Positions 3,989 to 63,999 of a DNA stretch of 64,000 bases are shown piece after piece. Source of the stretch: a virus; IMG/VR virus record IMGVR_UViG_3300035190_001334, positions 1 through 64,000 of that record; one strand, 5' to 3'. The translations under genes were made by a program, and so were the position numbers. Positions within the stretch are counted from its first letter, which is position 1, and the number at the start of each line of letters is the position of its first letter. The notes beneath the pieces were generated by a model, which was given only the letters and a program-made list of their open reading frames with translations, had not been told where the DNA came from and ran no database searches.

Positions 3989-4018
3989 TTGCAGAAAAGA
4001 AAGTTTCGATGCTACACT
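3989..4018 (+). promoter_or_regulatory. Promoter of nrdA
   Basis: TTGCAG (3989-3994), an 18-base spacer, then TACACT (4013-4018) inside an extended -10 TGCTACACT. The ATG of nrdA lies 27 bases downstream. The -35/spacer also contains one copy of the repeated octamer GCAGAAAA. Confidence 0.6.
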
Positions 4019-4045
4019 AGATAAACCAAAACGACAAAAGACATA

Positions 4046-6289
4046 ATGCAAGTAACAAAACTCGACGGCTCGTTGCAAAATCTTGACTACCAAAAGATTC
4101 ACGCAATGGTTGAAATCTGTGCGGCTGGAATCGAAAATGTAAGTGTTTCAGACGTAATCATGGGCGCGAAACTTAACTTCTACGATGGCATCTCAACTCA
4201 AGACATTCAGACTGCACTAGTGAAAAGCGCTGAGAACTTGATGACTGCGCGTAACCCAAATTATTCACTGCTTGCTGGGCGTTTACTTCTTACTCAACTT
4301 CGTAAACAGGTGTGGGGCGAGTGGTCAGTACCCCATCTTTCGGACGTAGTTTTTGCCAATACTTTGCGCGGATTTTATGATGAGGAGCTACAAGGATTTT
4401 ACTCTGCTGAGGAGTGGAATGAACTTAACGACTACATCAATCACGACCGAGACTTAGATTACACTTCCGCTAGTATTCAGCAATTCAAAGACAAGTACAG
4501 CGTCAAGAATCGCGTCACTGGACAGATTTACGAGACTCCACAAGTAGCTTATATGCTCATTGCTGCTGCTGGGTTTGCTCACGAAGATAAGGCGATTCGG
4601 GTGCAGTTTGTCAAAGATGCCTACGACGCTTTCTCAACTGAAGCTATCTCGCTTGCCACACCTATCCGCGCAGGAATGCGTACAAGCTCCAAGCAATATG
4701 CAAGTTGTGTACTAATTGCGGCAGATGATGACCGTAAATCGATTGCTGCGGCTCAGTCTGCGATGATGGAGTATGTTTGTTTGCGAAGTGGTATTGGTGT
4801 TGACTTTGGAAGATGGAGAGCGCTCAATGCCCCTATCCGCAATGGCTCTGTCAAGCACACTGGAGCAATTGGTTTCCTCAAGTCCTACGAAGCTACAATC
4901 AATGCCTGTAGCCAAGGTGGGGTTCGGAAGGGTAGCGCGACAATGTTTTACCCTATCTGGCACAAGGACGTACTTTCTTTTCTGCCTCTGACGAACGGGA
5001 AGGGAACCGAAGAGACTCGTACTCGCGGATTGGATTACGGAATCGCCACTTCCAAGATTTTCTATGAAAGATTGCAAGATGAGGGGGAAATCTGTTTATT
5101 CGACCCCAACGATTTGAAAGCTAAGTATAACATCTATGAGAACTTCGGACTAGAATCTTTTGATAAATTGTACCTAAAAGCAGAAGTTGACCCTGATATC
5201 CCCAAGACAAGAATCAGTGCGGTAAAACTTTGGACATTGATTGCTCAAGAAAGAGCCGAGACAGGTCAAGTTTATATTCTAAATATTGACCATGCAAATA
5301 GCCACAGTTCTTTTACTGTACACATTTCCCAAAGCAATTTGTGTGTCGAAATAACAGAGCCAACTACACCTTTCTACTCTCTTGATGACCCAAATGGGGA
5401 GATTGCAACCTGTATTCTTGCTGCACTTAATCCTGCAAAAATAAGAAGTCGTTTAGATTACCAGAAATCTTCCCGTATCATTGTCCGTTTTCTTGATAAC
5501 GTTATTGAACATCAAGATTACCCTTTCATCATGGCTGAAAATGGTTCTAAGGCTCGTCGTTCAATTGGTGTAGGTTTTAATGACTTTGCACATTGGCTGG
5601 CTCTAAATGACTTCAAATGGGGTAGTGACGAGATGCTAGAGGAAGTACACAATCTAGCTGAAATGCACCAGTACTACTTACTTAAAGCTAGTAATGAATT
5701 AGCTATTGAAAAAGGAGCTTGCAGTAAATTCAATGAAACCAAGTACTCGAAAGGCATTCTCCCAATCGACACCTATTATAAAAATGTAGATAGCTTGGCG
5801 GCTCCTATTTATGTATATGACTGGGAGGCACTTCGAGCATCTATTTTAGAACACGGTCTTCGTAATAGCACTCTCACCGCGCAAATGCCTTGTGAGAGCA
5901 GTAGTTTGACGGGAAGTGGCTCTACAAACGGCATCGAGCCTCCACGTTCAGCTATTGGCATCAAAGATAGCAGCACCAACACACTCAAGTTCGCTATCCC
6001 TGATGTAGATAAAGTTGAGTATGAATATGCTTGGTCTTTCTCTTCTAACGAAGCTTACCTGAACACTGTCGCAGTCATTCAGAAGTTCTTTGACCAGTCC
6101 ATTAGTGCAAACACCTATTACAATCCTCTTCTGTACCCAGATTCAAAAGTACCTCTTCAGGTAGTTCTCGATGACCTCATTTATGCTTATAGTATTGGTC
6201 TGAAGAGTTTGTATTATCACAACACTCACGATATGTCCGACAACGGATTATCTTCTTCTTCTTGCAGTTCTGGAGCTTGTGCATTGTAA
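4046..6289 (+). CDS. nrdA: Ribonucleotide reductase class Ia, large (alpha) subunit
   Basis: 747 residues, normal family length, converting ribonucleoside diphosphates to deoxy forms in the cytoplasm. It has an N-terminal ATP-cone-like region (residues 1-~95). The active-site cysteine pair is visible in QYASCVL and IATCILAALN, and the radical cysteine in NLCVEIT (N.C.E). Typical NrdA loops GGVRKGSATMFYPIWH and NGIEPPR are present. The C-terminus is CSSGACAL, the same C-x4-C redox tail as E. coli NrdA (CESGAC), so reduction by a host or phage thiol carrier is expected. nrdB follows after three bases. Confidence 0.97.
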   Translation: MQVTKLDGSLQNLDYQKIHAMVEICAAGIENVSVSDVIMGAKLNFYDGISTQDIQTALVKSAENLMTARNPNYSLLAGRLLLTQLRKQVWGEWSVPHLSDVVFANTLRGFYDEELQGFYSAEEWNELNDYINHDRDLDYTSASIQQFKDKYSVKNRVTGQIYETPQVAYMLIAAAGFAHEDKAIRVQFVKDAYDAFSTEAISLATPIRAGMRTSSKQYASCVLIAADDDRKSIAAAQSAMMEYVCLRSGIGVDFGRWRALNAPIRNGSVKHTGAIGFLKSYEATINACSQGGVRKGSATMFYPIWHKDVLSFLPLTNGKGTEETRTRGLDYGIATSKIFYERLQDEGEICLFDPNDLKAKYNIYENFGLESFDKLYLKAEVDPDIPKTRISAVKLWTLIAQERAETGQVYILNIDHANSHSSFTVHISQSNLCVEITEPTTPFYSLDDPNGEIATCILAALNPAKIRSRLDYQKSSRIIVRFLDNVIEHQDYPFIMAENGSKARRSIGVGFNDFAHWLALNDFKWGSDEMLEEVHNLAEMHQYYLLKASNELAIEKGACSKFNETKYSKGILPIDTYYKNVDSLAAPIYVYDWEALRASILEHGLRNSTLTAQMPCESSSLTGSGSTNGIEPPRSAIGIKDSSTNTLKFAIPDVDKVEYEYAWSFSSNEAYLNTVAVIQKFFDQSISANTYYNPLLYPDSKVPLQVVLDDLIYAYSIGLKSLYYHNTHDMSDNGLSSSSCSSGACAL

Positions 6290-6292: not shown

Positions 6293-7411
6293 ATGAAAGT
6301 CATTAACTTTGAGAAACAAAATCAAATCCAACCCCTCTTTTTGGGGGAAAATCTCGGTGTTCAGAAGTACCTCACACCACAGCACCCTAAGCTCGAAGCA
6401 TTGACCGTTCGCCAAATGGAATATTTCTGGCGACCCGAACGCCATGCAGCTAACATCGCTCAAGATAATCTTGACTACCCTAACTTAACCGAAGCCGAGC
6501 GTCACGTATTTCTTTCTAACATTCAATATCAGATTGTTCTTGACACTATTCAAGGTCGAGCAATTATCCCTGCACTCATGCCTTTTGTAAGTTGTGATGA
6601 ACTTGAATCTTGCATCACTGCTTGGCAATTCTTCGAGAACATTCATAGTCGCAGCTATTCTTTTATTCTCAAGAACGTGCTTCCACAGCCCGAAGATATT
6701 TTCGACGGTATTGATAAGGTTGAAGAGATTATTGCACGGTCTAACGACATTTGTACTCAGTACGAAGAACTTATTGGCTTTGCAAACAAATATTCCCTTA
6801 ATGATGGGCATGAGTTTGGTGCTTTTCTAGACAGATTAAAGCGCTCTATCTACCTAACCCTCATTTCTATCAACATTCTTGAAGGTGTTCGTTTTTACAA
6901 TTCATTTGCTTGCTCGTTTGCACTTGCAGAAAACAACAAGATGCTCGGTACTGGCAAGATTCTCAGTGAAATTGCGAGAGATGAAGCCTTGCATCTAAAT
7001 ATTACACAGTATTTAGTTAATTTTCTTAACTCAGACCCAGATTGGCAGCACATTGCTCAAGACCCAAAGATTCGCGCTCAAGTTGAAAGTATGTATCGCT
7101 CAGCCGTACAGCAAGAGGAAGACTGGGCAAAATACCTCTTTAGTAAGGGTTGCCTTTTAGGGCTTAATGAAGCTATACTGAGCGAGTTCATACGCTGGAT
7201 TTGCAATGTGCGTACAGATGTCATTGGATATGGCAAGTTGTACCCCGAATCGAAGTCTAACCCGATAACTTGGATTCTACGTCACCTTGGAGGTGCAGAG
7301 ACTCAATCTGCACTGCAAGAGACAGTCACCAATACTTATCTCGAAGGTGGTGGACTTGACCTCACCAAGCCATTAGATTTCAGTTCTAAAAAGAGGAAAT
7401 TTTCACTATGA
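6293..7411 (+). CDS. nrdB: Ribonucleotide reductase class Ia, small (beta) subunit
   Basis: 372 residues. The di-iron ligands expected from E. coli R2 are all visible: Asp in VLDTIQGR, Glu and His in FFENIHSRSY, Glu in ILEGVRFY, and Glu and His in RDEALHL. The radical Tyr is the last residue of IHSRSY, so this is a normal tyrosyl-radical class Ia enzyme. It is co-transcribed with nrdA (three-base gap) and ends in an ATGA overlap with the next gene. Confidence 0.97.
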   Translation: MKVINFEKQNQIQPLFLGENLGVQKYLTPQHPKLEALTVRQMEYFWRPERHAANIAQDNLDYPNLTEAERHVFLSNIQYQIVLDTIQGRAIIPALMPFVSCDELESCITAWQFFENIHSRSYSFILKNVLPQPEDIFDGIDKVEEIIARSNDICTQYEELIGFANKYSLNDGHEFGAFLDRLKRSIYLTLISINILEGVRFYNSFACSFALAENNKMLGTGKILSEIARDEALHLNITQYLVNFLNSDPDWQHIAQDPKIRAQVESMYRSAVQQEEDWAKYLFSKGCLLGLNEAILSEFIRWICNVRTDVIGYGKLYPESKSNPITWILRHLGGAETQSALQETVTNTYLEGGGLDLTKPLDFSSKKRKFSL

Positions 7412-7813: not shown

Positions 7814-7972
7814 ATGGAACTAACACTAGAAGACCTCAAGAAGCACGTAGAGAAATACTACGAAGTAAATGGTAAGTATCCTAGTAACATTCGTCTAGCG
7901 AAGAAGTTGAAGACTGGGAATGGCTTTCAAGCATATTGTACAGAAAAAGGTATTAAGGTGAGTTATGTCTAG
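7814..7972 (+). CDS. Small hypothetical protein, 52 aa
   Basis: Starts at ATG 7814 right after the previous stop (MELTLEDLKKHVEKYYEV). It has an amphipathic helix, then NGKYPSNIRLAKKLKTG, a shape reminiscent of small helix-turn-helix domains, but no family is assigned. It overlaps the next start by 8 bp. Confidence 0.6.
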   Translation: MELTLEDLKKHVEKYYEVNGKYPSNIRLAKKLKTGNGFQAYCTEKGIKVSYV

Positions 7973-8210: not shown

Positions 8211-8694
8211 CCCAAAAGAAGATGGTAAGACTCATATTAATATTTGGGCAAAGGGGGCAACTTTTATTGGCAAGTTTCTAGCTCCTCGCACTCTTTGTGA
8301 ATTAAATATGCCCGAAGGAAGATTCCTATGTGTAGCTGCATACTGGTATCATCTAACTTGCAAAGAAGACAGCCGCCTGAGTCGTGTTTACGATTGGGAA
8401 ACTGAACTTCTTGCTACCCAACTTTCGCCTCTACCTAAAAAACAACAACTTCCACCAACGGAGTTACAAGCGAAGCTGGAAAAAGCCATCGACCAAAAAA
8501 TCAAGTGGAGCGAATACTGGCAAGAAGAGTTCACGGACTCAACACTTCCTTTTCTGCAATATCATCTCGATGCTGAAGGTAATGTAGTTGACGAGAGTAG
8601 GAAATATCGGTGGCTGTTAAATCACCTCGAAGCAAGACGTACACTATTACAACAGAGGAGAGACAATGCAAATCTTATCAGCGAATGCGGTTAG
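8203..8694 (+). CDS. Hypothetical protein, 163 aa (INIWAKGxTxxGKFLA N-terminus)
   Basis: The N-terminus INIWAKGATFIGKFLAPRT, then GRFLCVAAYWYHL, resembles phage proteins that begin INIYSKGKTELGR-LSN and continue with an ESVEGYWY-like segment. I know these only as uncharacterised. The remainder is helical and charged. The real function is unknown. Confidence 0.6.
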   Translation: MIDPKEDGKTHINIWAKGATFIGKFLAPRTLCELNMPEGRFLCVAAYWYHLTCKEDSRLSRVYDWETELLATQLSPLPKKQQLPPTELQAKLEKAIDQKIKWSEYWQEEFTDSTLPFLQYHLDAEGNVVDESRKYRWLLNHLEARRTLLQQRRDNANLISECG

Positions 8695-10206: not shown

Positions 10207-10826
10207 TGGTAAAACATGACATTCGCCTTCGAGTCAGCAGCCTCATTCGACAACTAGACTACCCGCAAATCCGCCTCAAGCGCCTTGACATTGACCTACT
10301 TCGTGCTTGGTGCAACGCAAATTTACCCAAAGCTGTTGAGAAATTTAAACGCGACCGATTCGACCTTAACGAAGCAACGACTTGGGAAGAACTTGCTTGT
10401 TATAACACCATCTTACAAATCTATGGTCGTAAGGTAGCTATATATTTCACTTTCGGGTGGTTAGAGTATCAAGCTGTCAAGGAATTTATTCAGTCTAAGA
10501 AGGGGGCAAAGTTTCGCCAAGACTTTGAGCTTGACCATCATAGCGCTATCTTGCTTTCACCTACAACATTCTTTTCTGCCGAGTCGCTAGACGAATTTTG
10601 GGTGAGCTTCGACCTAAAAAGTGGTAAGGGCTACAACTTCCTCGACTACTCGCACTATAATGATGACGAAGACCTTGACAGCGATGATGAAAAATATCAG
10701 TGGCTTAACGAAGCCCTAGCTGAACAAGAAGACGCAAAAATCAAAAACCCCTACGAGGAAGCCACTCCTCGACGCTCCAGCACACCTCGCAAAACTAAAC
10801 CTAAAAATGCCACTCCTACAAAATAA
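10206..10826 (+). CDS. Hypothetical protein, 206 aa, acidic/basic tail
   Basis: An N-terminal helical basic region (RLRVSSLIRQLDYPQIRLKR) is followed by a globular core, then a very acidic linker (DDEDLDSDDEKYQW) and a Lys/Arg/Thr/Pro tail (TPRRSSTPRKTKPK) that could bind nucleic acid. The family is unknown. The next gene starts inside its last codons in another frame. Confidence 0.65.
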   Translation: MVKHDIRLRVSSLIRQLDYPQIRLKRLDIDLLRAWCNANLPKAVEKFKRDRFDLNEATTWEELACYNTILQIYGRKVAIYFTFGWLEYQAVKEFIQSKKGAKFRQDFELDHHSAILLSPTTFFSAESLDEFWVSFDLKSGKGYNFLDYSHYNDDEDLDSDDEKYQWLNEALAEQEDAKIKNPYEEATPRRSSTPRKTKPKNATPTK

Positions 10827-11956: not shown

Positions 11957-12443
11957 ACACTACAGTATTTCAATTCTCGAAAACTTTTCAGATAAGCCGT
12001 TACAGGAAATTGCACTTGCAGTTGCAAAAAAGATTGAGAAAGATATCTCAGAAGATGACTTTACTCTTTGGGATGAAGCTGAAGACTTGGAGTTAGGTGC
12101 TAATTTCTTAACTACTGAAGAGGCTTATACTTGGTATTTTGTGGCTGACGACCTTTTACCGATATTCAAAGATTTTCCAGATACTTGTTTCTGTCTTTCG
12201 GTTAGCGACGGTGAGTGCGGTGGTCAGTACCGTGCCTTGTTCTTCAATGGGAAATATGTAAAACAATACCCTGAAATTCGTTACGAAGAGTTTCGCCCTA
12301 ACGACTTCGAGTACCAAGCTTCAGAGAAAACCCCCTTGGGAAGTGCAGAAAAGAATGTTGAAGAGCCTGACCCTGTAGAAATCGATTTTATTAAGAAGAG
12401 CTGGCAATATTATTTCGGAGAACGCACAAGATGCTTGACCTAG
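11943..12443 (+). CDS. Hypothetical protein, 166 aa
   Basis: ATG 11943 (MADPRHYSISILENF) lies inside the membrane-protein gene; the open frame extends upstream but this start fits best. Acidic, with a region like FVADDLLPIFKDFPDTCFCL followed by a beta hairpin (GGQYRALFFNGKYVKQYPE), similar in style to phage proteins of unknown function that sit next to regulators. Upstream of the macro-domain gene. Confidence 0.6.
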   Translation: MADPRHYSISILENFSDKPLQEIALAVAKKIEKDISEDDFTLWDEAEDLELGANFLTTEEAYTWYFVADDLLPIFKDFPDTCFCLSVSDGECGGQYRALFFNGKYVKQYPEIRYEEFRPNDFEYQASEKTPLGSAEKNVEEPDPVEIDFIKKSWQYYFGERTRCLT

Positions 12444-13035: not shown

Positions 13036-13440
13036 ATGCTAGGAAGTCTTCCTAATCCACAAGAATCTAGGATAATCCCTATCCCAGATAAACTAAACAA
13101 ACTTTATATAGATACCCACAACATTCTTCAGCAGTATAAAGATACAACTGCTCCACTACTTGCTAAAGAAATTATAAGGATATCTACTAATTTAGATTTT
13201 GTTTTTGAGAATCTATCTATAGCAGATGAGGAGTCTAAAATTGAACACTGTATTAGGCTTTATGAGTACTACTACAAACTACTTTCTTACTACGACTCAC
13301 TATTTTTGTCTGACGAAGTTGAAAAACATTTAACTGTAGAGGCAGAAAAAGAAAGGCTGCTTACGATAGAACGACAAGCTGAGCGTAAAATACGTAATGC
13401 CCTAGCAGAACAAGAAAAAATACTCTTAGGCTGGTTTTAG
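13036..13440 (+). CDS. Hypothetical helical protein, 134 aa
   Basis: Follows the macro domain by two bases. Almost entirely helical; the last 45 residues (EKHLTVEAEKERLLTIERQA) form a charged coiled coil. Co-expression with the macro domain is likely from spacing; function unknown. Confidence 0.65.
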   Translation: MLGSLPNPQESRIIPIPDKLNKLYIDTHNILQQYKDTTAPLLAKEIIRISTNLDFVFENLSIADEESKIEHCIRLYEYYYKLLSYYDSLFLSDEVEKHLTVEAEKERLLTIERQAERKIRNALAEQEKILLGWF

Positions 13441-13443: not shown

Positions 13444-13472
13444 TTGACAACACATCCCTTTTCTGCAATACT
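13444..13472 (+). promoter_or_regulatory. Promoter with consensus TTGACA
   Basis: TTGACA (13444-13449), a 17-base spacer, then AATACT (13467-13472). The spacer contains a copy of the octamer TTTTCTGC. AAGGAG and the ATG at 13500 follow. Confidence 0.6.
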
Positions 13473-13781: not shown

Positions 13782-13971
13782 ATTACTCCCTTCGTGGGGA
13801 TGCGCCGATATAATTGTCCTATCCATCTTTTCTGTTTATATTACTTTCGTATTCTTTACTATTGATTTTTGGGATTGGAAATGGAAGACTGATAAAGGCG
13901 AAAACTACTACACCATCATGCCGCCCACTTTTTCTGTCACTTTTGATTGGGATAGAATCTATGAAATTTAA
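13771..13971 (+). CDS. Small membrane protein, 66 aa
   Basis: ATG 13771 inside the previous gene. One hydrophobic helix, ADIIVLSIFSVYITFVFFTI, is followed by an aromatic/basic WDWKWKTDKG and a short soluble tail. Overlaps the next gene start by 11 bp. Function unknown. Confidence 0.6.
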   Translation: MKIKLLPSWGCADIIVLSIFSVYITFVFFTIDFWDWKWKTDKGENYYTIMPPTFSVTFDWDRIYEI

Positions 13972-14203: not shown

Positions 14204-15330
14204 CTAACACCTCTATTGCTCCCGTCGAAATCGTTACAATCTCGCGTATTATCCCTATCTATAAAAATGGCGAAGAAGCCTCTGCTATCCAAGTTGTGAA
14301 CTTCAACTTTGCCAATGGTGATGAATGCGGCTATAACGTCATTTCACAAAAAGGTATCTATCAAGTAGGTTCCAAAGCGGTCTACATTCAACCTGACTAC
14401 TGCTTACCCGACTCTCCTTTGTTCGCAAGCTTCACGGCTCCTAACGGCGACCCCAACAAATCTCGACTTGGCAAGAACAACCGCATTCGAGCGCTCAAAT
14501 TCAACTTCAGCTTCGAGAACAGTTCTGACCCAATATACTCTGTTGGCATCTTACTTAACACAAACGAGCTACCTATCGAGTTACTGGCGACTGAAGACCT
14601 CGCAGCAGCTTTGGGCATCACTAAGTACGAAGAACCAGAGAAAGGCGCTACAGGACTAACTAGAGGCACATTACCTTCTTTTCTGTATTCCACTGATGAA
14701 GTCAACTGCGCGAACCTCAAGTCCCACATTAATCGTGTTCTTGCAAGCGGAGCAGAAGTTGCGTACACTATCAAAGTTGATGGAAGCTCGTTCACTGAGT
14801 ATTTCAAGAAAGATGCTGAAGGAAATTGGTACACAGGTATTTGCTCCCGTTCTCTTGAAAAGAAAATCACTGATGACACTGCTGATAGTTGGGTGAAGTT
14901 GGCTAAATCTTCGGGCTTGTATGAACGTGGCATGGAATACTGCAAGAAGCATAATGTCGAACTCGCTTTTCGTGGAGAAATCTACGGTCAAGGACTTAAA
15001 GGTAGCGGCAACAAGTTGAACCCAGATGCTAATAAAAAACAAGGACTCATTATTTTCGGCATCGATGATTTATCAAGTGGTTTCGCTACTCGCATCCATT
15101 ACGGAGAGCGACACAATCTTGACGATGTTTGTGAAGAGTTGGGAATTAATTATACTTCTGCGGCTGTTTTTCACCCTAAGAATTACGATGAGTTAGTTTC
15201 TATTGCATCTGATATTTTTAAAGATGAAAAAGAATCTGGCTATGTTGTTGAGGGTGTAGTTGTTCGCACCGTTTACTCGAATGATTTGTCCTGTAAGATT
15301 ATGAATCCTGAATATGATGCCAAAAAATAA
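14200..15330 (+). CDS. RNA ligase, Rnl5 / DRB0094-like
   Basis: 376 residues. The N-terminal ~150 residues look like the OB-type module of this family, followed by an adenylyltransferase domain. Motif I is YTIKVDGSSF (~187-196, Lys is the AMP acceptor), motif III-like is AFRGEIYGQG, motif IV is VEGVVVR, and motif V is SCKIMNPEYD near the C-terminus. It would seal nicks in RNA, for example tRNA cut by host defence nucleases; that substrate is inference. Last plus-strand gene of this block; its stop abuts the stop of the opposing adhesin gene. Confidence 0.87.
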   Translation: MTNTSIAPVEIVTISRIIPIYKNGEEASAIQVVNFNFANGDECGYNVISQKGIYQVGSKAVYIQPDYCLPDSPLFASFTAPNGDPNKSRLGKNNRIRALKFNFSFENSSDPIYSVGILLNTNELPIELLATEDLAAALGITKYEEPEKGATGLTRGTLPSFLYSTDEVNCANLKSHINRVLASGAEVAYTIKVDGSSFTEYFKKDAEGNWYTGICSRSLEKKITDDTADSWVKLAKSSGLYERGMEYCKKHNVELAFRGEIYGQGLKGSGNKLNPDANKKQGLIIFGIDDLSSGFATRIHYGERHNLDDVCEELGINYTSAAVFHPKNYDELVSIASDIFKDEKESGYVVEGVVVRTVYSNDLSCKIMNPEYDAKK

Positions 15331-15842: not shown

Positions 15843-17615
15843 TTATTCTCCATAAAAAACATCGGGAATGTAATCTCCAGTGTATCTCGCAGACTTAGTG
15901 ACCCGTAACTGTGGAATCTCAATCCAACTCCTACTGCGGAACAAAGAGGTATTAAGACTTGCTACTGCGCTATCTTGAGTGAAAGTACGTTTGATACTAA
16001 ATTCAGAGCTTGACGAGGCTGCATTCATCACTTCGCTTGTAGTTGCAGTTGATTCAAGTTCGCCATTCAAGAATAGAGAACAAGTTGCGCCAGATTTCAC
16101 AAAAGATACATCAACTAATGTACTGTCTGGAATATCGGTCACACCGTCCAAAGTGAAGCTACCAAAGGCGATGCGTAACTTGAGGTCATAGATTCCCCAC
16201 GTAAATCCACCTTCAACATCGATAATAGCTCCGCGAGTATTGCCAATCGGATTGTAAATTTTGGCTTCGAGAGTTACATTACCTGTTATCTCCAAGTTGC
16301 TGTTTGTATATCCAATATGCGAGTACTTATTGAGCCGTCCTGACGCGATAAGAGGTTGAACTGTAGTGTTTGAGGTAAAACTTCTTGTGAGGCTGTACTG
16401 AGCAAAATCCGTATCACCCACATTGAATTTGAGAAGTAGCACTGTGTTAGCTGTTAACGTATCTTTAGGCGGAACATCGTTAGTAGAAAAAGGAATGCTG
16501 GCTGCTGTATTGATGGTAAGTTGGCGCAAATATCCTTGCCAACTCTGAGAAGTCCATGACGGTGTTCCAGTAGCGTTTTTCAAGCTGCCGATACACAGTG
16601 GCTCAGTTGAGTTATTGTTGAAATTGTTAGCTGATTTGAGATGAGCGCTAAGTACACCATCAATAAATATTTTGTAAACTCGCCCGATTCGGTTAATAAC
16701 AATACCATGCTCCTTGACATCATCTGGTAAGGCGCATGAAAGCACGTTACTACCAAAGATAGCAAACAAGGTACTATCAGCCGCTACACCCACATAAAAC
16801 CCTATGCTGGATGCTTTGTGGCTACCCACGATACATCCATACTCGCCTACGCTCGTTTTGGCAGAAAAGAAGGAAATGGTGAAGTCAGTTTCGTCGAGGT
16901 CGAGAGTACTGGTTTTGGTTGCTTCGAGTCGCCCAGTGGAGCCAAGAAGGAGGCGCGACTTGCTGATGCTCGGAGTGCCTACAGTAGCCGCGATAGCCGA
17001 GATGCCAGCACCAGTGTATGCAGTTGTTGAGGAGCCGAACGCCAGATACAGAATTTCAGAGGCAGGAGCCGTGTACCCTATCTTTTCTGCCACACCGATT
17101 AAGCCGCTAGGCGAGATGTTGTCGCTGTAATTGATATTCGCGTAAAGTTTATTAACATATTGCAGTTCGAGGACTTGCTTGCCAAAATATGCAGTGAGAA
17201 GTGTTGCAAGGCTATATTGCTTAGGTAGCGCGAAGATATCAGTGAAATTCTTGATTATGTGACCATTTGGGACTAGCTCAATGAAATATTTGGTGTACTT
17301 GCCAGCATTGAGGATTGTGAGGGTCGTGTTGGCTGTTAGAGTGATACTGAGGTACTGAGTCGCGGTAGCGAGGTCAAGTGAGTATGTGTCGGTCGAGATG
17401 GTGATTGAAGTGAGAGCGTAGGCGCTGATTTGATTCTGGGGTATGTACTCGAAGCCTGAAGATGCGTTGAGACTGTTTGTTATGTTCGTGTAAACGCCCC
17501 AACATTTGCGGTCAAAGTTGATTAGCGGAGTGCTTGCAGGTAATAATGAGGAATCTAGTGCCGAAAGCTCTGAATCGCTGTTTACTGTATAGCCGTTGCG
17601 TGGAGGTCTTGCCAT
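15843..17615 (-). CDS. Adhesin with two LamG-like (concanavalin-type) domains, 590 aa
   Basis: The N-terminus (MARPPRNGYTVNSDSELSAL) is a likely virion-attachment module. LamG-like unit 1 spans ~220-400, with DFTISFFSA, IGFYVGVA, YKIFIDGVLSAHL and WQGYLRQLTI. Unit 2 spans ~440-590, ending in IPQLRVTKSARYTGDYIP, the standard close of phage LamG_3 domains. Probably binds host-surface glycan. The -10 box lies six bases before the ATG, so the mRNA may be leaderless. Confidence 0.82.
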   Translation of the reverse strand: MARPPRNGYTVNSDSELSALDSSLLPASTPLINFDRKCWGVYTNITNSLNASSGFEYIPQNQISAYALTSITISTDTYSLDLATATQYLSITLTANTTLTILNAGKYTKYFIELVPNGHIIKNFTDIFALPKQYSLATLLTAYFGKQVLELQYVNKLYANINYSDNISPSGLIGVAEKIGYTAPASEILYLAFGSSTTAYTGAGISAIAATVGTPSISKSRLLLGSTGRLEATKTSTLDLDETDFTISFFSAKTSVGEYGCIVGSHKASSIGFYVGVAADSTLFAIFGSNVLSCALPDDVKEHGIVINRIGRVYKIFIDGVLSAHLKSANNFNNNSTEPLCIGSLKNATGTPSWTSQSWQGYLRQLTINTAASIPFSTNDVPPKDTLTANTVLLLKFNVGDTDFAQYSLTRSFTSNTTVQPLIASGRLNKYSHIGYTNSNLEITGNVTLEAKIYNPIGNTRGAIIDVEGGFTWGIYDLKLRIAFGSFTLDGVTDIPDSTLVDVSFVKSGATCSLFLNGELESTATTSEVMNAASSSSEFSIKRTFTQDSAVASLNTSLFRSRSWIEIPQLRVTKSARYTGDYIPDVFYGE

Positions 17616-19654: not shown

Positions 19655-21052
19655 CTAAAAGTAGCTTTTCAACTGCGGGAACTCTAGATTCAGCCAATTC
19701 CAAAAACTCACATCACTCCAGTTATACACTCTCTTTGGTAGCGGCTGGGACATCACACTGAAGGCACTCGCGCCACTTTCAAGGTAAATTCCGTTGCACA
19801 ACCCTAAAATACCTGAGCAGACAGAAAAGAGATTAGCGTTGCTTGCTATCGTTGTAGTGTATGCGGTCGTCACATTTATATCCGCGCTATTCACTTTTAA
19901 TGTTAAGGTGGTAGCGCTTTTTTGCACATATATATGATTCCATGCCCCAGTGACGGGAATCCACGAAGTTGAAATTACTACTACGCCATTGATTGACACC
20001 TCTAGGTTATTTGAGATTGTCTTTCTAAGAGCAAACACCCCATTTTTTTCTGCCAAGGCGACCAGCCGCCCCGAAGGATTTGTGTTGAAATATATAAAAG
20101 CATTCAGTGTAAATTCATTAGGAAAAACCACATCTTCATACTGCACATTGGTAGTCGAGCCACAAATAAGGCACTCCGTCCCAAACAACTTATTTTCTGA
20201 CTCATATTCAATACCAGACATTGAGGAGATTTTTGAATTGCTGCTTTGGTCAGAAAGTCGCCCATTGAAATCTAAGTGTAGGAGGCTCGAATTGTTGCTT
20301 GGCGAGGTATATGTCGTAAGATTTATATCTGGGTCGCTGACGCGCAATATTAAGCTATTGGAGTAGATAACTGAACTTGGCTTTAGCGTCGTGGGTATAG
20401 CTATATCTGCCTCGAACCAAATATTGTTGCTAGAATCTGTAATTCTTGCGAGATTTATTGTGCTGTTGATAGTAGGAAGTGTCTGTGTGTTACCGTACTC
20501 GAAAAATATCTCGCCAAGTGTGCCAATTTCGCGCTTCGACCACTTAGCGGCTGTCAGTGAGATTGTGGCTTGTAGTGCGTTGCTGTTGTTGTAATACTTG
20601 GCGCTCAGCGCGCTGGGAAAAGTGTCTAGCCCTTTGAAAATTAGCTGAAGTATTGCGTTGCTTAATTTAGTTGCACCAAAGTCTAATGTCAGTGTTACAC
20701 CTGTTCCAGAATAAAGTATTAGCTCGTTGCCGCTTTCAATTACAGTATCGAGAGGCGAAGCAGCAGCAAGAATAATGCCGTCAGAGGTAGTAAGGCGGAG
20801 GTAGAGGGGTAACGCATAATCAGTTAAGGCAGTTCCGAAATTTATATCGTTGCTATTATTACAGGTGTTGTCTGTAATTGTCCAGTAGCTTGCATCTAGA
20901 TTGAGCGCTGAGATGCCAAACAGTGTGTTGGTGATATTAGCTCCGCTTGTGTTATGCAGAGTGGCTAGAATTGGCAAAGAAGCTGCTGTGATGGTCTGCT
21001 GCTTGATTACTTTTTCGGCGATGTCAACGCAAGTTTGGAAGAGTGTGGTCAT
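19655..21052 (-). CDS. Adhesin with C-terminal LamG-like domain, 465 aa
   Basis: The N-terminal ~60 residues (CVDIAEKVIKQQTITAASLP) form a short helical attachment part. A beta-rich middle (~60-260) is followed by a LamG-like unit (~265-440): LLHLDFNGRLSDQSS, FTLNAFIYFN, FALRKTISNNLEVSINGVV and WNHIYVQKSATTLTLKVNS. Likely virion surface, host recognition. A -10 box ends six bases before the ATG. Confidence 0.75.
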   Translation of the reverse strand: MTTLFQTCVDIAEKVIKQQTITAASLPILATLHNTSGANITNTLFGISALNLDASYWTITDNTCNNSNDINFGTALTDYALPLYLRLTTSDGIILAAASPLDTVIESGNELILYSGTGVTLTLDFGATKLSNAILQLIFKGLDTFPSALSAKYYNNSNALQATISLTAAKWSKREIGTLGEIFFEYGNTQTLPTINSTINLARITDSSNNIWFEADIAIPTTLKPSSVIYSNSLILRVSDPDINLTTYTSPSNNSSLLHLDFNGRLSDQSSNSKISSMSGIEYESENKLFGTECLICGSTTNVQYEDVVFPNEFTLNAFIYFNTNPSGRLVALAEKNGVFALRKTISNNLEVSINGVVVISTSWIPVTGAWNHIYVQKSATTLTLKVNSADINVTTAYTTTIASNANLFSVCSGILGLCNGIYLESGASAFSVMSQPLPKRVYNWSDVSFWNWLNLEFPQLKSYF

Positions 21053-29689: not shown

Positions 29690-29720
29690 GGGTACAAGTA
29701 AAAATTACCTACTAATTAAT

Positions 29721-52041: not shown

Positions 52042-52084
52042 ACTTGCTGGCGCTCATTTCTTTCTGTCTACGAACGTCAGTGAG

Positions 52085-54897: not shown

Positions 54898-54969
54898 TTG
54901 ATTATTATACCTTGTTCCCTATTTCTTTTCTGCAAGCTAACGCAGTGACGAGCGCAAGCGAGTGGTACG

Positions 54970-57083: not shown

Positions 57084-59764
57084 AGCCCACTTGAACCAGA
57101 ATTTACCCACCTTCCCATGCCATAAGGAACCCCTGAAACATCTACTCCGATTGAGTTCGGCAAACCTGTTACGTTCACAGTTGTCACCAGCCCACCTTTA
57201 ATACTATTTAGCGCTGTAGCGGTCGTACTAACTGCCGTGAGGGTAACTGGCACTACTTCGCCGAATGTGACATTGACGGGCTGATTAAGCGCACCTCCGT
57301 TGATTATCTGCGTAGTGAACGTACTCGACTTAGCAGCCCACTTTTGCCCAAAGTATTGAAACACACTATTAGGCTTTATTGCGTTTTGTGTCCACGTAAA
57401 TGATGTGGTTAAGCTGGCTCCGTCGAACACATCTTTATGCAGCTTGAATGTAGCGCCCTTGATTGCTTCTTGTAAGTTCTGCGCCCCAGTAATTGTCACA
57501 TCGCTCAATATGTTGCGGTCACGTACATTTGAGGTCAGATAAGTCAGCGAGTCTTTGAGTCCATTCTTGTCCTGAATAGGGTTAAGTTGGTTCACTGGCT
57601 TGCGTACTGTAGCGCTAGGAGGTCGCCCCAAAGCTGTACTAAAGCTTGAACTCTGTATGTTGCCCTTGAAGCTGGCATCAGCAACTGTGCGGATTGTTCC
57701 GTAGATTGAGTAGGAGTCGTCTTTGAAACTGGCATCATTAGCTGCGGTTGAATAGGATGGTACTGCTGAACCATCTTTTTTCTGCTGTGTTGGAATCACC
57801 TTGTTGACATCAATGCTCGGCGGAACGCCCTGACCAATTACTGCATCATCAGGCACATCCATATAACTGAATGGACGATAATAAGTACCACTATATGTCT
57901 CGTTTGCGTTAATTGAACCTAAGAGTCCATTTAGGTCATTGAATGTTTCATAAATTCTATCGATATTTGGCTTAGTTGTCTTGCTTGGGCGAATCATGTA
58001 GCGAGTATGCTCGTAAACTTCTTCACCAGTGGTCAAATAGATAGGGTTCTTGCCCCAGAGTGAAGCTGCTTGGTCATTATACTCAGGGTTGCCACTAACA
58101 GCCGCAGAAATCGAATATCTCGACTTACTAACTATCATCAAATTAGGAACCCAATCAGGACTAGGGAACAAAACTGCTACAGGGTCTTGAGTGCTTGGGG
58201 AGTTAGGTAGTTGTGCCTTGGGAATATACTCGACATTCCAATCAACTTTGTCGCCATCTTTGTAATATTTGCTAAACGGCTCGATGAAATAGTCTACGCG
58301 CTCGGTAATAGGGATTTTGCGATATAGGAAGCTTTCAAGTTTGCATTTTGCCTTGTAAACAGAAAGATAGTAGTGTTGGAGGCTGATGGGGTCGTTTGCA
58401 ATTAGATTACCAATTTGCAGCAGGAAAGTAAGGTTGATGTATGCCTGAATACTCCCTTGCGACCAACTTGCAGCATCCTCATTAGCAAAACGCTTAATTG
58501 TCCAACCTTCAGTCTGTTCAGCGACCAAAACTTGTGAATTAGACTTGAGGAGGTTCTGGTACTGCTCTGGAACTTCAATTTTGACGTAGTTCCCATACGC
58601 ATCCTTCACTTGAGGCTTGATGTCAAGTTCAAGCGGCTGATAAATGAAATCGGTCTGCTTAATGCTAGTTACGCGCCACACGATAGGACGCGCAAAGATA
58701 TTCTGTCCCACCATACCCATAGCTTGATTTACAAGGTCGCCAAGCAGTCCTTTCAATGCGTTACGTTGTGCTGCTGGATTACTTTGCATCCTGTTAAGAA
58801 TTGAAGTGTCAATATTGATTGGAGCCATCGGGTCAGTAACTAGTTCTAGCGCCGAGTGACTAAAACCGTAAGTGCCACTAATTTCCGACTGCGGTTGCCC
58901 GTATTTGTAAAGCGTAATCTTAAATTGCTTACTTAAACCACCGTTATCAACAAACACACTAAGGTCGCGAGGAACTAAGCTACCATCTCCGACTTCTACT
59001 GGAGGTAAGTGGGGATTAGGGTCGCCATCGTAAAGTACATACTCATCATCGGTCACTTGGACGTAAGTATTTTGTAGTCCATAATTAGTTCCACCATTCC
59101 AGTTCAGTAATGTATTTTTGTAGCAAGGTGTCTCGTTGTCCGTCAAAGTAATTTCAGTAAGAGGCGTAGCCGTAATTGAGCGTCCAGAACCAAGTGCAAC
59201 GTAATCGATGCCAGATTGTGAGTAAATAGCTACTTTGCCGTCAAGGATAGCGCGTTCATCTAAAAAAGACCGCAAGGTGAAGAAATCTGTGTTGGCTGGT
59301 CGGTAAGGAAGATTGACAAAGCCACTTAAACCTGTGATTGGGCAGTTGATGCCAGTGAAAAGAGATACTTGAGATAAGAGCGAAGCTAGACTGAAGCGGT
59401 AGAACTGTTCACCAATAATTTGCGCTGAACGCCCATAAGCCAAAACAAACTTAGCTGTGTTGATTGGTTTTTCTGTAAAGAGCTTGCTTACATGAGAATA
59501 GCTAAGTGAAACTTCGTATTTTACAAATATATTACCTACTTTCTGCACTTGAGGTGATTCTTTGTAGCTGTAGTTAGTCAGATAAAAATTGTAGTTACCA
59601 AAGGTTAAGTCACTTCCCAAATCAGGTATTTCATTCAGAGTTGCCACGTAAATGACGGCAGAAAGAGATGGAGGTTGGTCAAGCTCCTGATTTAGCGTGT
59701 AGGTACCTACAACGGCTCTGAGAGGATTTTCGGCGCTACTGGTAAGATTTGTGACTAAGGACAC
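57080..59764 (-). CDS. Large tail/baseplate protein, 894 aa
   Basis: Begins MSLVTNLTSSAENPLRAVVG. The N-terminal ~330 residues are beta-rich and resemble tail-hub-type proteins in position (after the tape measure). The middle is helical (WSQGSIQAYINLTFLLQIGN). The last 250 residues are Thr/Ser/Gly-rich beta with NVTFGEVVPVTLTAV and MGRWV near the end. It overlaps the upstream gene by 10 bp. Exact role unknown. Confidence 0.65.
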   Translation of the reverse strand: MSLVTNLTSSAENPLRAVVGTYTLNQELDQPPSLSAVIYVATLNEIPDLGSDLTFGNYNFYLTNYSYKESPQVQKVGNIFVKYEVSLSYSHVSKLFTEKPINTAKFVLAYGRSAQIIGEQFYRFSLASLLSQVSLFTGINCPITGLSGFVNLPYRPANTDFFTLRSFLDERAILDGKVAIYSQSGIDYVALGSGRSITATPLTEITLTDNETPCYKNTLLNWNGGTNYGLQNTYVQVTDDEYVLYDGDPNPHLPPVEVGDGSLVPRDLSVFVDNGGLSKQFKITLYKYGQPQSEISGTYGFSHSALELVTDPMAPINIDTSILNRMQSNPAAQRNALKGLLGDLVNQAMGMVGQNIFARPIVWRVTSIKQTDFIYQPLELDIKPQVKDAYGNYVKIEVPEQYQNLLKSNSQVLVAEQTEGWTIKRFANEDAASWSQGSIQAYINLTFLLQIGNLIANDPISLQHYYLSVYKAKCKLESFLYRKIPITERVDYFIEPFSKYYKDGDKVDWNVEYIPKAQLPNSPSTQDPVAVLFPSPDWVPNLMIVSKSRYSISAAVSGNPEYNDQAASLWGKNPIYLTTGEEVYEHTRYMIRPSKTTKPNIDRIYETFNDLNGLLGSINANETYSGTYYRPFSYMDVPDDAVIGQGVPPSIDVNKVIPTQQKKDGSAVPSYSTAANDASFKDDSYSIYGTIRTVADASFKGNIQSSSFSTALGRPPSATVRKPVNQLNPIQDKNGLKDSLTYLTSNVRDRNILSDVTITGAQNLQEAIKGATFKLHKDVFDGASLTTSFTWTQNAIKPNSVFQYFGQKWAAKSSTFTTQIINGGALNQPVNVTFGEVVPVTLTAVSTTATALNSIKGGLVTTVNVTGLPNSIGVDVSGVPYGMGRWVNSGSSGL

Positions 59765-60414
59765 AATAATATATCCCCCTGCGAAGTGAAGAAACTATTT
59801 TTGCCAAACTTCAAGAACTTGTCGTATCGGTAAACCTGCCCGTAGTAACTGACGCTCTCAGTATCAACCGCCGCCCCTGCCAGCCTGAGTAACTTCTTTT
59901 TCTGCACAAGCGAAGCGAATCCGAGAAATGGTGAAAGTATGTCAAAATCAAGACGTACTCTGATGGTCGTGCGGTCAGTGATTGAAAAGCCTTTGATGTC
60001 CGAAACTTTATATGCGGTCGTGTCTCGGTCTTTAAAAATAATTGCGTTCGGGAAGTATACAGTCCAGTCTAAATCTGTGTGGCTGTTGAGGTCAGTGAAA
60101 TGGAAATCGAGCGTAGCCGTCTTGGAAATAGGGTAATCGCCAGTTGTCAAGTAGTAGCAAGCATTGAGGTCAGGTGTGGCAAAGCGAGAGCCTGAGTTAT
60201 TGTATCCATCAGCGCCGAGAGAGACAAAGTTGAAACCGACAAGAAAAGGTAACTTGAATTTCTGGTCTAACTTGATTACAGTCAGATAAGAGGCTTGTGC
60301 TGTATATGTGTCAAGATTTACAGTATTAGTAGATTCGCTTGTATATGGCGACACGGCTGCACCTCCAACCCAAGTTGGCAATCGTTTGGGCGTATCTTTA
60401 AGTAGTTTCCACAT
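59755..60414 (-). CDS. Tail-region protein, 219 aa
   Basis: Beta-rich, with FLVGFNFVSLGADGYNNSGS and TLDFHFTDLNSHTDLDWTVY. One base from the stop/start of the next upstream gene, between the small tail proteins and the hub-like protein. Possibly a distal tail or baseplate component by position. Confidence 0.62.
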   Translation of the reverse strand: MWKLLKDTPKRLPTWVGGAAVSPYTSESTNTVNLDTYTAQASYLTVIKLDQKFKLPFLVGFNFVSLGADGYNNSGSRFATPDLNACYYLTTGDYPISKTATLDFHFTDLNSHTDLDWTVYFPNAIIFKDRDTTAYKVSDIKGFSITDRTTIRVRLDFDILSPFLGFASLVQKKKLLRLAGAAVDTESVSYYGQVYRYDKFLKFGKNSFFTSQGDILLCP

Positions 60415-61232: not shown

Positions 61233-61239
61233 CTCTGGA

Positions 61240-63999
61240 TTAAGTGACATAACTCTTGGTCAAATCATTAAAGTCTCTACCGAACTTGGTAAATGCTTTC
61301 ACAGCTATATCATTGAATTGTTTCGAGATATCGCCAAATCTACCAGCAGCGTCTCCAGTTAGTGTAGTTTTCACACCGTCAATCGTGACTTGGTTGTTAA
61401 TTGTCAAGTTGAGGCTCTGTTGACCAGAAATTGAGCTAGTGGTTTGAGGCTTGTTAGGCGAAGCGTCACGAAAATCATTAGTAATCTTGCGAGTTTCTTT
61501 GTTTATCTGGTCTTGAAGTTGCTGTGCTTGCTGTTGAACGGAATCTCTAGTGCTGCCGCCAATAGTTTGCAGTTGTCTTTGAGTTGCCTCGAAGTCTGCC
61601 CCAAAGGGTGTACGGTTAGTGATATTTTGGATAGGCTGTTGAGTAGCAAAGCCAGTACTTAGTGCTTTACTAACAAGGTCAATAGATACCAAGCCACCAC
61701 TAGGGTTTCGTTGGGCAATATCGAGAATTTGACTCTGACCATTTAAGCCAATGTTGTTGATTTTGCTGAACGTATCTTGTCTTACAAAACTTTGCGTCTC
61801 CCTATTCAGAGCTAAGGAACCAAGAGTCTGTTTCTGAGCGTCAGCGATGTTTTTGGGGATGTCACCGATGAATTGATTTACACCACTAATGTCGCCAACT
61901 TGAATACCGCTACTTGGGTCAAGCTTAGAAACCAGTACCGATAGCAACTTAGTCTGAGTCAGCGCATTGACCAACATTGTCTCTTCAGTCTTTAGTTGTT
62001 GCTCCTGAACTTGAAGTGTGTTAAGTTCTTTCTCACCAGCACGACCAGCTTCATTCTTATCAGCCTGTGTTTTCTCGATAGTCGCAAGAATTTCGTTACG
62101 ACCAATAAGAGCTTGGGCAGCAGGATTATTTTGACCGAACAGACCGAGAACCGAAGAACTGAAACCTCGCGTAGCTTGATTGCTTTGGACTGTGGAAGCC
62201 TCTCTACGTCCTTGCAGGTCTAATCGAGCGTTAGCCAATGTTGCTACCTTCTCAAGCTTATCTGAGCCTTCCCTTGCTGTTGCCGAAAATCTTTCTAATG
62301 AAGCATTGACACCTTCAAGAATTGTTTTTTGCTTAATGTATTGGAAGTCACGGTCAGCTTCGGCTCTTGCAGTTTTAAGTTGGCGCTCAATGTCTGCTTG
62401 TTGCTTTTTAAGTTCAGGATTGTTAACTCCGTTCCTTGTCGCATCAGCATTAGCACTTGCAACTCGGTCACGAACTGCTTGAACAGTATTGACTCTGGCA
62501 GTTACTTTACTAATTTCCTTATTCGCATCAAGTAATAATTGGCTAGTTTTATCAGCTAGTTTTGCACCAATATTACTGAACACTGCACCAAGCGAAGAGG
62601 CAGAAAAGAGAGATGATGCAGTAGAGCCAAGTGAACTGAATGCGTCGCCTACTCCTTTTGAGATATCCGCAAGACGTTGTTGAGGTGCGAACGATGCATC
62701 AATGGCAGCTTCATTACGTGCAATAGTCTCGGCTAACGCGCCAATTTCTTGTTTGAGGCGATTAGCAACAACTGTGAACTTGAGGTCTTGTTCGGCTTGC
62801 TGGACAACTTTCTTGGCACTTTCGATATCAATGTTACCAACGCGCTCTTTTAGTTGGTCAGAGGCTCCAGTTATAGAGGTTTTTCTATTTTTGGCACTAT
62901 CTACTTTCTTTTGAAGGTCGTCTATTTCTTTTTTTGCGTTTTCTATCGCTTTTACAGTCAGTTCAGTTACTGCGGTAGAATTAAGTTTTCGAGAAACTCC
63001 TGTATTTAAAAAACTATTACCAACACTATCAGTGTTTACAAGCAAAGCGATTTTAGCATCAACCTCTTTTTGGACTCTATCTTCAAGCCTAAAACCAGTA
63101 TCACTTCTACCCTTTCTATTTGCGTAAGACTTGTCAACCTCTTCTCTAAAGAATTGCTCTTTTAGTGCTGGTAACGCCGAGGCATCTATTTTTATTTGCC
63201 CTTTCGATAATAATTGTTTACTCCTATCAACTTGACTCTGCGCTAAGTTTATATCTGCTTCTGCCCTAGCTGTTTCTTTAGCTACAGCCGCTTTGTCAGC
63301 TAAATTGATTTTGTTGTTTATGCCAAATTTAGACCCAGCATCCTTTTCAGAGATGTTGCCAGATTTGAGAACTTGTTGTAGCAGTTTTGTGCGATTGCCA
63401 ACCTCAGCTTGTGCCGCTTGTAAAATATTGCCCTTAGTTATTTCCTCTTCCCGCGCCGATATAGCTAAGGACTCTTGCTTGACAGACAATTCTTTTTCTG
63501 CCGCAGCCAGCTTTGCTTGCGCCAACGAGACTGACAACGAACCAAATTTACTTTCCTGAGCAAATGTGGAGACTATGTTTTTCTGCACCTCCAATAGCCC
63601 TTGATTGAAGCTGAGTAGTTGTTTACGCTTACCAAGTTCTTCGGTGATTTGCCCAGAGTTTTTGATATTAAAAGCTTCGGCACTAAGGTCAGCAATTTTA
63701 CTTAGTCGGTCTGCATAGTCTTGGGCGCTAATATTAGGTGCATCTAGAGACTTGCGAAGAGCATCGATGTTGCTTTGTATACCTTGAAGACTTCGTTTAG
63801 TAGATTGCCCGATAGCTTCTCCTCCAATTGCCCCAGCACTTGAAAGAACAGAAAAAAGTCTACCGTAAGAGTTTGTTACTGCATTGTTATAGCTAATTAT
63901 TTTGTCTGTAGCTACCTTGAAAGCCTCGTCCATAGCTCTTTGTGCAGTAGGGTCAGAAGCAACAAACTGCATTACCTTTACGTCTTCTGTAAGTCTTTT
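61240..63999 (-). CDS. Tail tape measure protein, 5' end cut by window edge
   Basis: At least 919 residues, and the frame stays open to the window end, so the Met at 63972 is probably internal. Dominated by long coiled coils (SDQLKERVGNIDIESAKKVV; EKELSVKQESLAISAREEEI) with Ala/Leu-rich hydrophobic stretches (LGSTASSLFSASSLGAVFSN). The C-terminal part has a Gln-rich region and SLNLTINNQVTIDG, common near the ends of tape measures. It sets tail length and leads the tail gene order. Confidence 0.82.
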   Translation of the reverse strand, partial: KRLTEDVKVMQFVASDPTAQRAMDEAFKVATDKIISYNNAVTNSYGRLFSVLSSAGAIGGEAIGQSTKRSLQGIQSNIDALRKSLDAPNISAQDYADRLSKIADLSAEAFNIKNSGQITEELGKRKQLLSFNQGLLEVQKNIVSTFAQESKFGSLSVSLAQAKLAAAEKELSVKQESLAISAREEEITKGNILQAAQAEVGNRTKLLQQVLKSGNISEKDAGSKFGINNKINLADKAAVAKETARAEADINLAQSQVDRSKQLLSKGQIKIDASALPALKEQFFREEVDKSYANRKGRSDTGFRLEDRVQKEVDAKIALLVNTDSVGNSFLNTGVSRKLNSTAVTELTVKAIENAKKEIDDLQKKVDSAKNRKTSITGASDQLKERVGNIDIESAKKVVQQAEQDLKFTVVANRLKQEIGALAETIARNEAAIDASFAPQQRLADISKGVGDAFSSLGSTASSLFSASSLGAVFSNIGAKLADKTSQLLLDANKEISKVTARVNTVQAVRDRVASANADATRNGVNNPELKKQQADIERQLKTARAEADRDFQYIKQKTILEGVNASLERFSATAREGSDKLEKVATLANARLDLQGRREASTVQSNQATRGFSSSVLGLFGQNNPAAQALIGRNEILATIEKTQADKNEAGRAGEKELNTLQVQEQQLKTEETMLVNALTQTKLLSVLVSKLDPSSGIQVGDISGVNQFIGDIPKNIADAQKQTLGSLALNRETQSFVRQDTFSKINNIGLNGQSQILDIAQRNPSGGLVSIDLVSKALSTGFATQQPIQNITNRTPFGADFEATQRQLQTIGGSTRDSVQQQAQQLQDQINKETRKITNDFRDASPNKPQTTSSISGQQSLNLTINNQVTIDGVKTTLTGDAAGRFGDISKQFNDIAVKAFTKFGRDFNDLTKSYVT

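Follow-up and report, generated by a model that had tools for sequence, protein, structure and literature searches.

A lineage-specific, selected DNA word of 15 nucleotides in the genomes of Pseudanabaena phages and their relatives

Introduction

In bacterial chromosomes, several short DNA words recur under selection, among them Chi, KOPS, HIP1, and uptake sequences. Chi belongs to the host and, in E. coli, is rich in GC and follows the direction of replication; KOPS are strand-skewed along the replichores, and uptake sequences are a feature of competent bacteria and not of phages. The word described here was found in a virus, the IMG/VR record IMGVR_UViG_3300035190_001334 (145,466 bases, referred to as the contig), whose bases 1–64,000 form the analyzed stretch, termed the window. 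An initial annotation of the window had noted that the octamer GCAGAAAA is highly over-represented and had likened it to Chi, packaging, methylation, or nucleoid-protein sites and to HIP1. HIP1 (GCGATCGC) is a palindrome of host chromosomes that is tied to methyltransferases (PMC4390886). Primase initiation sites were considered as well: E. coli DnaG is described as using a CTG site, starting at its central base, leaving the 3′ base uncopied, and making primers of about 10 nucleotides (nt; PMC12839067, PMC6163395), and the Okazaki fragments of phage T7 as being about 3 kb long (PMC12839067).

Enrichment and form of the word

It is virtually certain that the 15-nt sequence [G/T][G/A]CAGAAA[A/G][A/G][A/G][A/G], in which cytosine is avoided to about position +12 (counted from the C of CAGAAA as position 0), is a selected DNA word. 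An exact count on both strands gave 24 copies of GCAGAAAA in the window (8 plus, 16 minus), comprising all 23 copies of the initial annotation at precisely their listed positions and one overlooked copy on the minus strand (32368–32375). The copy number expected from Markov models was 2.5 (order 0), 4.6 (order 2), or 5.5 (order 3), and 100 dinucleotide shuffles of the window yielded a mean of 5.2 and a maximum of 12; about 5 copies are expected under orders 2 and 3 and the shuffles. Among the 23,213 octamers of the window, GCAGAAAA ranked third, first, and second under orders 1, 2, and 3, respectively. An order-6 model (21.7 copies expected, rank 7132) is blind to the octamer because the octamer's own sub-words are enriched along with it. 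The flanks are biased as annotated, with G or T preceding 22 of the 24 copies and A or G following 21. On the whole contig, 59 copies were found versus 12.4 expected (order 3), which places GCAGAAAA second among 27,301 octamers; the proposed genome-wide enrichment was thus recovered, but the top position is held by CAGAAAAG, which overlaps GCAGAAAA.

Searches with the ribonucleotide reductase and the portal protein against 50,697 phage records gave close matches only in the Pseudanabaena phages Pam2 and PA-SR01 (91 and 85%; 85 and 95%). Judged by these matches, the contig is a relative of Pam2 and PA-SR01, which are large viruses of freshwater cyanobacteria. The portal was found at 14 IMG/VR loci. 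Eight family genomes were analyzed over their whole sequence, namely this contig, Pam2, PA-SR01, and the IMG/VR contigs G001, G004, G005 (partial, 116 kb), G006 (partial, 93 kb), and G007; being related, they are not independent samples, and their genes were called by a simple longest-open-reading-frame rule, not by a trained gene finder. In line with the suggestion that related phages might share the word, GCAGAAAA ranked first or second of all octamers in each of the eight, with 59 copies in this contig, 60 in Pam2, 58 in PA-SR01, 61 in G007, 38 in G006, 53 in G005, 71 in G004, and 59 in G001 (9.5–12.6 expected). The portal-locus records G002, G003, and G008–G011 (9–48 kb), for which only patterns were counted, contain KGCAGAAAAR 1–15 times each and the backward pattern at most once.

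The true word is longer than the octamer, asymmetric, and of the form KRCAGAAARRRR, cytosine-poor to about +12. The octamer does lie in a longer motif, as the annotated consensus KGCAGAAAAR implied, but the real form is the degenerate K-R-CAGAAA-R-R-R-R, with G or A before the core. Compared with a within-gene shuffle of synonymous codons (this contig, Pam2, and PA-SR01), CAGAAAAGA occurred 104 times versus 11.9 and GGCAGAAAA 74 times versus 10.2. Single changes within CAGAAA reduced the counts to about chance (ratios 0.5–1.6), whereas G or A before and A or G after this core were tolerated. A mixture model fitted to the 679 CAGAAA copies of the same three genomes assigned 389 to K-R-CAGAAA-R-R-R-R, cytosine being rare up to +12 or +13. 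Defining a strict site as KRCAGAAARRR, there are 80 sites in this contig, 82 in Pam2, 72 in PA-SR01, 70 in G007, 41 in G006, 63 in G005, 83 in G004, and 87 in G001; the same pattern read backward occurs 3, 2, and 3 times in the first three. The window holds 33 strict sites, which contain 19 of its 24 octamers. Measured against the synonymous null in the eight genomes, CAG followed by AAA is the outstanding context (4.0 fold enriched), other followers of CAG reaching at most 1.8 fold; in front of AAARRR, AGA (the word shifted by one base) is enriched 2.6 fold and any other trinucleotide at most 1.3 fold.

Independence of codon use

Under the synonymous null, 72 strict sites were counted in the coding DNA of this contig versus 8.9 (maximum 14 in 30 shuffles), and the other seven genomes showed a 5.5–8 fold enrichment. 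Pooled over the eight genomes, the excess appeared in the three sense codon phases (observed/null 58/14.6, 180/35.6, and 34/6.6) as well as in the three antisense phases (59/3.7, 159/13.3, and 7/1.9). In the 113,353 bases of non-coding DNA, 83 sites were counted (73 per 100 kb, compared with 52 in coding DNA), where an order-3 null gave 3.9 and at most 9 in 50 runs. An origin in codons or proteins was rejected on the basis of synonymous shuffles both within genes and across the genome, of the enrichment in every codon phase, and of the non-coding null. Together with the positional conservation described below, these results support the initial proposal of a functional iterated word.

Conservation of individual sites

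The individual positions of the word are kept by purifying selection. Between this contig and Pam2, 60 of the 80 strict sites align, and the core is kept in 51 of these and the full motif in 44, compared with 41 of 94 for CAGAAA copies that do not belong to the motif and 32% (656 of 2052) for permuted hexamers. The other six comparisons point in the same direction, with kept fractions of 0.68–0.90 for the core, 0.37–0.71 for non-motif CAGAAA, and 0.29–0.61 for permuted hexamers. When the baseline was matched to base and codon phase, C0 to A+5 showed 0.23–0.39 of the expected substitutions; the ratio was 0.54–0.59 at +6, +8, and +9, 0.79 at +7 (mostly exchanges between A and G), and 0.84–0.89 at +10 to +12. 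Beyond +12 and before −2 it lay around 1 (0.8–1.3), the values for −2 and −1 themselves being 0.61 and 0.90. This analysis comprised 2448 site comparisons, which are not independent, and omitted the close pairs Pam2/PA-SR01 and this contig/G001 as well as any site for which fewer than 9 of the 11 positions could be aligned.

Copies appear to accumulate the longer DNA has resided in the lineage, since sequence found in a single genome of the eight is one third as dense in sites as shared sequence: pooled over the genomes, 153,686 private bases hold 31 sites (20 per 100 kb; 0–34 by genome) and 917,568 shared bases 547 (60 per 100 kb; 50–69 by genome). For comparison, the synonymous null of this contig corresponds to about 7 sites per 100 kb.

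The strict word sites of the window, and the octamers outside them, are as follows (position, strand, description):

3990–4000, plus, word site, intergenic or gene edge, upstream of nrdA
4976–4986, minus, word site, antisense in nrdA
6926–6933, plus, octamer only, no strict site
7939–7949, plus, word site, sense
8548–8558, minus, word site, kept in 7/7 relatives
10570–10580, minus, word site, antisense
12344–12354, plus, word site, sense
13341–13351, plus, word site, sense
13457–13467, minus, word site, intergenic or gene edge
13928–13938, minus, word site, antisense
14677–14687, minus, word site, antisense in RNA ligase gene
16860–16870, plus, word site, kept in 7/7 relatives
17081–17091, minus, word site, core kept in 7/7 relatives
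19820–19830, plus, word site, poorly conserved
20044–20054, minus, word site, sense
23135–23145, plus, word site, sense
26583–26593, plus, word site, kept in 7/7 relatives
28172–28182, plus, word site, kept in 7/7 relatives
28496–28506, plus, word site, poorly conserved
31212–31222, minus, word site, sense
32049–32059, minus, word site, kept in 7/7 relatives
32368–32375, minus, the overlooked octamer, no strict site
37776–37786, plus, word site, kept in 7/7 relatives
39332–39342, minus, word site, core kept in 7/7 relatives
40312–40322, plus, word site, intergenic or gene edge
45389–45399, minus, word site, sense
45739–45749, minus, word site, kept only in G001
47705–47712, minus, octamer only, no strict site
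47917–47927, plus, word site, core kept in 7/7 relatives
49240–49250, plus, word site, kept in 6/6 aligned
52058–52068, minus, word site, intergenic or gene edge
54924–54934, minus, word site, intergenic or gene edge
57778–57785, minus, octamer only, no strict site
59657–59667, plus, word site, kept in 6/6 aligned
59896–59906, minus, word site, sense
62599–62609, plus, word site, kept in 6/6 aligned
63492–63502, minus, word site, core kept in 6/6 aligned
63579–63586, minus, octamer only, no strict site

Occurrence in hosts and other phages

None of 244 cyanobacterial genomes (Pseudanabaena not identified among them) reached a phage-like density of GGCAGAAAAGRR, and the idea that the host chromosome shares the word therefore found no support in this set; the highest count was 20 in 2.9 Mb (7 per Mb; reversed pattern 4), compared with 54–103 per Mb in the eight family phages. 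A search of genome contigs and plasmids with the TnpB protein of PA-SR01 returned no Pseudanabaena genome among the matches listed. In other phages, pattern counts gave 5 strict sites in 169 kb of T4, 10 in 122 kb of T5, 11 in 179 kb of S-CRM01, 1 in 167 kb of S-N03, and 1 in 40 kb of T7. The synonymous null was 3.4 versus 5 observed for S-CRM01 (80 kb) and 0.5 versus 1 for T7, and no word of comparable strength was found in T4 and S-CRM01. Complete uniqueness is called into question by a mild excess of the strict word in T5 (first 80 kb; 6 versus 1.9, maximum 5 in 30 shuffles). Pan5 (GC 44%), the only informative phage of the same host genus that was counted, has 4 strict sites versus 2.1. 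The near-absence from Pam1 (0), Pam3 (0 in the first 50 kb), Pan1 (0 in the first 45 kb), Pan3 (1), and Pan4 (0) is uninformative because these phages have a GC content of 54–64% and a null of at most 0.5.

Two other words were encountered in these phages. ACGGAACTC of S-CRM01 is probably a peptide repeat, since all copies are sense (24 sense, 0 antisense), and was rejected. In the first 45 kb of the GC-rich Pan1, the palindrome GTTTAAAC occurs 20 times versus 0.2 expected, counted on both strands, and is possibly an operator or a restriction-related word.

The word is a selected DNA word specific to this phage lineage and not of the HIP1 type, because it is conserved within the family and reaches no comparable density in the 244 cyanobacterial genomes or in T4, T5, T7, S-CRM01, S-N03, and Pan5. 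It is stronger and better defined than first noted, real, selected, and lineage-specific, and reflects neither HIP1 nor codon use nor, probably, methylation. No description of it was found among the listed matches of literature searches, which mostly excluded subscription papers, and term look-ups in the papers on PA-SR01 and Pam2 (PMC7431792, PMC9382816) returned nothing on it.

Possible functions

The best single reading, offered tentatively and at somewhat less than an even chance, is that the word is the initiation site of a phage-encoded primase. The template strand 5′-YYYYTTTCTGYM-3′ would be read by the phage's own primase, which would recognize the CTG trinucleotide (the site of E. coli DnaG), leave its 3′ G uncopied, and start synthesis at the central T, giving a purine-only primer, 5′-AGAAARRRR, some 12 nt long. 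The sites would then set the starts of lagging-strand fragments about every 3.5 kb per strand, with forks crossing the genome in both directions. The word is one-sided: a strict CAG, read as CTG on the opposite strand, leads into a stretch of A and then into purines that exchange A for G and fade over 12 nt; such a strict start with a fading purine run of about 12 nt after the C would fit a primer. A putative TOPRIM/zinc primase is encoded outside the window (contig 139009–139947) and directly followed by a DnaB-like helicase protein (139920–141584), and both are encoded in all eight genomes; a zinc-like cysteine pattern and the EGEK/DND residues of the putative primase likewise occur in all eight.

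Several observations weigh against a priming site. The primase call itself is weak (PHROG E 8e-7; Toprim E 0.0026, below the cut-off of Pfam), hhalign gave no significant alignment of the putative primase to T7 gp4, and the structure model is poor (mean predicted local distance difference test score, pLDDT, 44.7) and unusable for a fold search. Its N-terminal zinc region varies across the family and the word does not, and in its distribution the gene is no different from other genes common to all eight genomes. In T7, taken as a control, the known sites TGGTC (126 versus 88.9) and GGGTC (84 versus 62.6) come no higher than ranks 7 and 39 among the 512 pentamers, and many other pentamers also lie above the null. 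Plus and minus sites are balanced (this contig 40/40, Pam2 42/40, PA-SR01 36/36, G007 35/35, G006 20/21, G005 33/30, G004 39/44, G001 40/47), so that no leading or lagging strand bias is seen; a bias toward the lagging-strand template was absent (40 plus, 40 minus, random runs), and a single origin with simple bidirectional replication would not be expected to give such a balance. Runs of orientation along the eight genomes were not significant. The spacing is near Poisson, with same-strand means of 3.0–4.4 kb across the eight genomes and largest same-strand gaps of 10–19 kb, and a test for even spacing gave p below 0.05 in 1 of 16 strand tests; a bias of strand or spacing, which the initial annotation had considered, was thus not clearly present in either form. 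Lastly, GC-rich words exceed the synonymous null 5–7 fold in the family genomes, although none reaches the score of the word (GGCGCTCA and GGTCGCCA are 5 fold above the null with lower scores), and this null is imperfect because such words exceed it too.

Whether the whole lineage has its genome written around a 15-nt priming word, with an extended primase site, purine-only primers of about 12 nt, and a selected map of Okazaki starts, is more doubtful still. If true, primer start sites would be readable from genome sequence, and lagging-strand starts in vivo would be directly testable in an isolated phage–host pair (Pam2 or PA-SR01 with Pseudanabaena).

Two other functions, each unlikely on present evidence, are serious rivals to priming because the genes for an exonuclease, RuvC, SSB, and others are as widely shared as that of the putative primase. 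A Chi-like word would stop or redirect a nuclease or helicase (a phage exonuclease or host AddAB/RecBCD) and thereby protect phage ends or start recombination. This would suit a short, asymmetric, individually conserved word without gene-orientation preference, and all eight genomes encode a RuvC-like protein and a conserved exonuclease, and five an Erf annealing protein, but no Erf match was found in G005–G007 (G005 and G006 being partial contigs). A host Chi should moreover be enriched in hosts, whereas none of the 244 cyanobacterial genomes surveyed, with the restriction given above, was phage-like (at most 7 versus 54–103 per Mb). An orientation bias of the Chi type along the genome was not seen, and Chi octamers are unlike a word with degenerate purine positions and a 15-nt footprint, which also counts against this function.

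The word may, with similarly low probability, be the site of a duplex-binding protein, such as a nucleoid, packaging, or genome-folding protein requiring numerous scattered sites, for which balanced orientation and random spacing would be the default. A conserved basic protein (contig 84535–85092) shares 87–98% identity with its counterparts in all five near-complete relatives, and a small conserved helix-turn-helix protein is also encoded. The likeness of the basic protein to HU/IHF was seen by eye only, with no Pfam or PHROG match and an all-helical model of low confidence (mean pLDDT 58.3), and a fading one-sided footprint with interchangeable purines would be less typical of base-specific duplex reading.

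A programmed single-strand nick site, as in T5 or Pseudomonas phage tf, is very unlikely: a conserved sequence at many dispersed places and a small conserved protein, annotated as endonuclease in Pam2 and present in all eight genomes, would agree with it, but the sites are equally numerous on both strands, the first 80 kb of T5 hold no word of such strength, and known nick consensus sequences differ from the word. A methylation site or a host word of the HIP1 type, both raised initially, is highly improbable. The family does infect cyanobacteria, where HIP1-type words are common (PMC4390886), but GCGATCGC has no copy in the contig, no phage-like density was observed in the cyanobacterial genomes, and the word is asymmetric, degenerate, and confined to one phage lineage. 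Methylation is unlikely because several positions accept either A or G, with almost free exchange at −1 and +7 and frequent exchange at +6, and the word is not palindromic. That the word merely results from codon use, peptide repeats, or a mutational bias can practically be dismissed. GCA-GAA-AAR (Ala-Glu-Lys) is indeed the commonest reading (20 of the 59 octamers in the contig), and certain other words lie above the synonymous null as well, but most of the excess persists under synonymous nulls, both strands, all phases, non-coding DNA, and conserved positions agree, and genome-private DNA is far poorer in the word.

Other features of the genome

Over the eight genomes, the GC-rich words GGCGCTCA, GGTCGCCA, and CTCGCGCC lie 5–7 fold above the synonymous null; at places aligned with Pam2 they are kept in 3 of 12, 7 of 14, and 2 of 4 cases, respectively, and GGCAGAAA in 17 of 29.

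The genome is probably circular, since the start of the contig is repeated at its end: window bases 1–127 recur at contig 144238–144364 and bases 124–215 at 145375–145466, both with 100% identity. In one of the two copies, about 1 kb of DNA has probably been inserted, accompanied by a 4-base repeat. The insert adjoins a DNA polymerase A-like fragment (window 53–325, E 2.4e-9, below the cut-off of the family) and an open reading frame (ORF) with a MUG113 domain, and the stretch 144238–145466 gave no Rfam match. The Pam2-type DNA polymerase and its neighbor gp121 are present in PA-SR01 and G007 but went unmatched in this contig and in G001, G004, G005, and G006; because it is matched in only some of the genomes, the polymerase appears to have been exchanged within the family.

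In searches for farther relatives, matches to capsid and portal ended at 76% identity or more, and those to the putative primase among viral contigs at 61%; the latter also matched Wolbachia-phage proteins weakly (28–34% identity, E about 0.003–0.007), and terminase searches gave distant matches, too. A free-standing ORF of 300 amino acids (window 1740–2642) resembles part of the large terminase subunit (46% over 90 amino acids, Pam2 TerL residues 332–421; phrog_5909, E 0.0011), and the ORF at 29661–30542 is 34% identical to a Pam2 protein annotated as sigma factor and matches phrog_6287 (BstA-like, E 0.00024). The name "botulinum neurotoxin" deposited for gp03 (near the terminase) and gp54 (near the tail fibre gene) of ON014754 looks like a spurious automatic label in both cases.

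Comparison with known systems

The word is not assigned to any known family of genome words, since none of them was clearly matched in all features tested. Like Chi, it is an asymmetric, octamer-like word over-represented genome-wide, but it is lineage-specific, purine-rich, and unoriented. With KOPS and DNA uptake sequences it has in common that these are short iterated words under selection, but it shows no strand skew (40 plus, 40 minus) as opposed to KOPS. HIP1 is likewise iterated within and between genes, but is a palindromic host word and has no copy in the contig, whereas the phage word is asymmetric. Found in a lytic phage, a strong word that is specific to its lineage and conserved site by site would mean that one phage function can shape codon choice throughout a viral genome. 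Its mean same-strand spacing of 3.0–4.4 kb is near the length of T7 Okazaki fragments, and it resembles the primase sites of E. coli DnaG (CTG) and T7 ((G/T)2GTC), as described in the sources cited in the Introduction, in its strict starting trinucleotide, its asymmetry, its dependence on the flanks, and its many copies per genome, DnaG primers being about 10 nt long. The known primase sites comprise 3–5 nt with looser effects of the flanks, whereas the phage word is conserved over 15 nt and leads all octamers.

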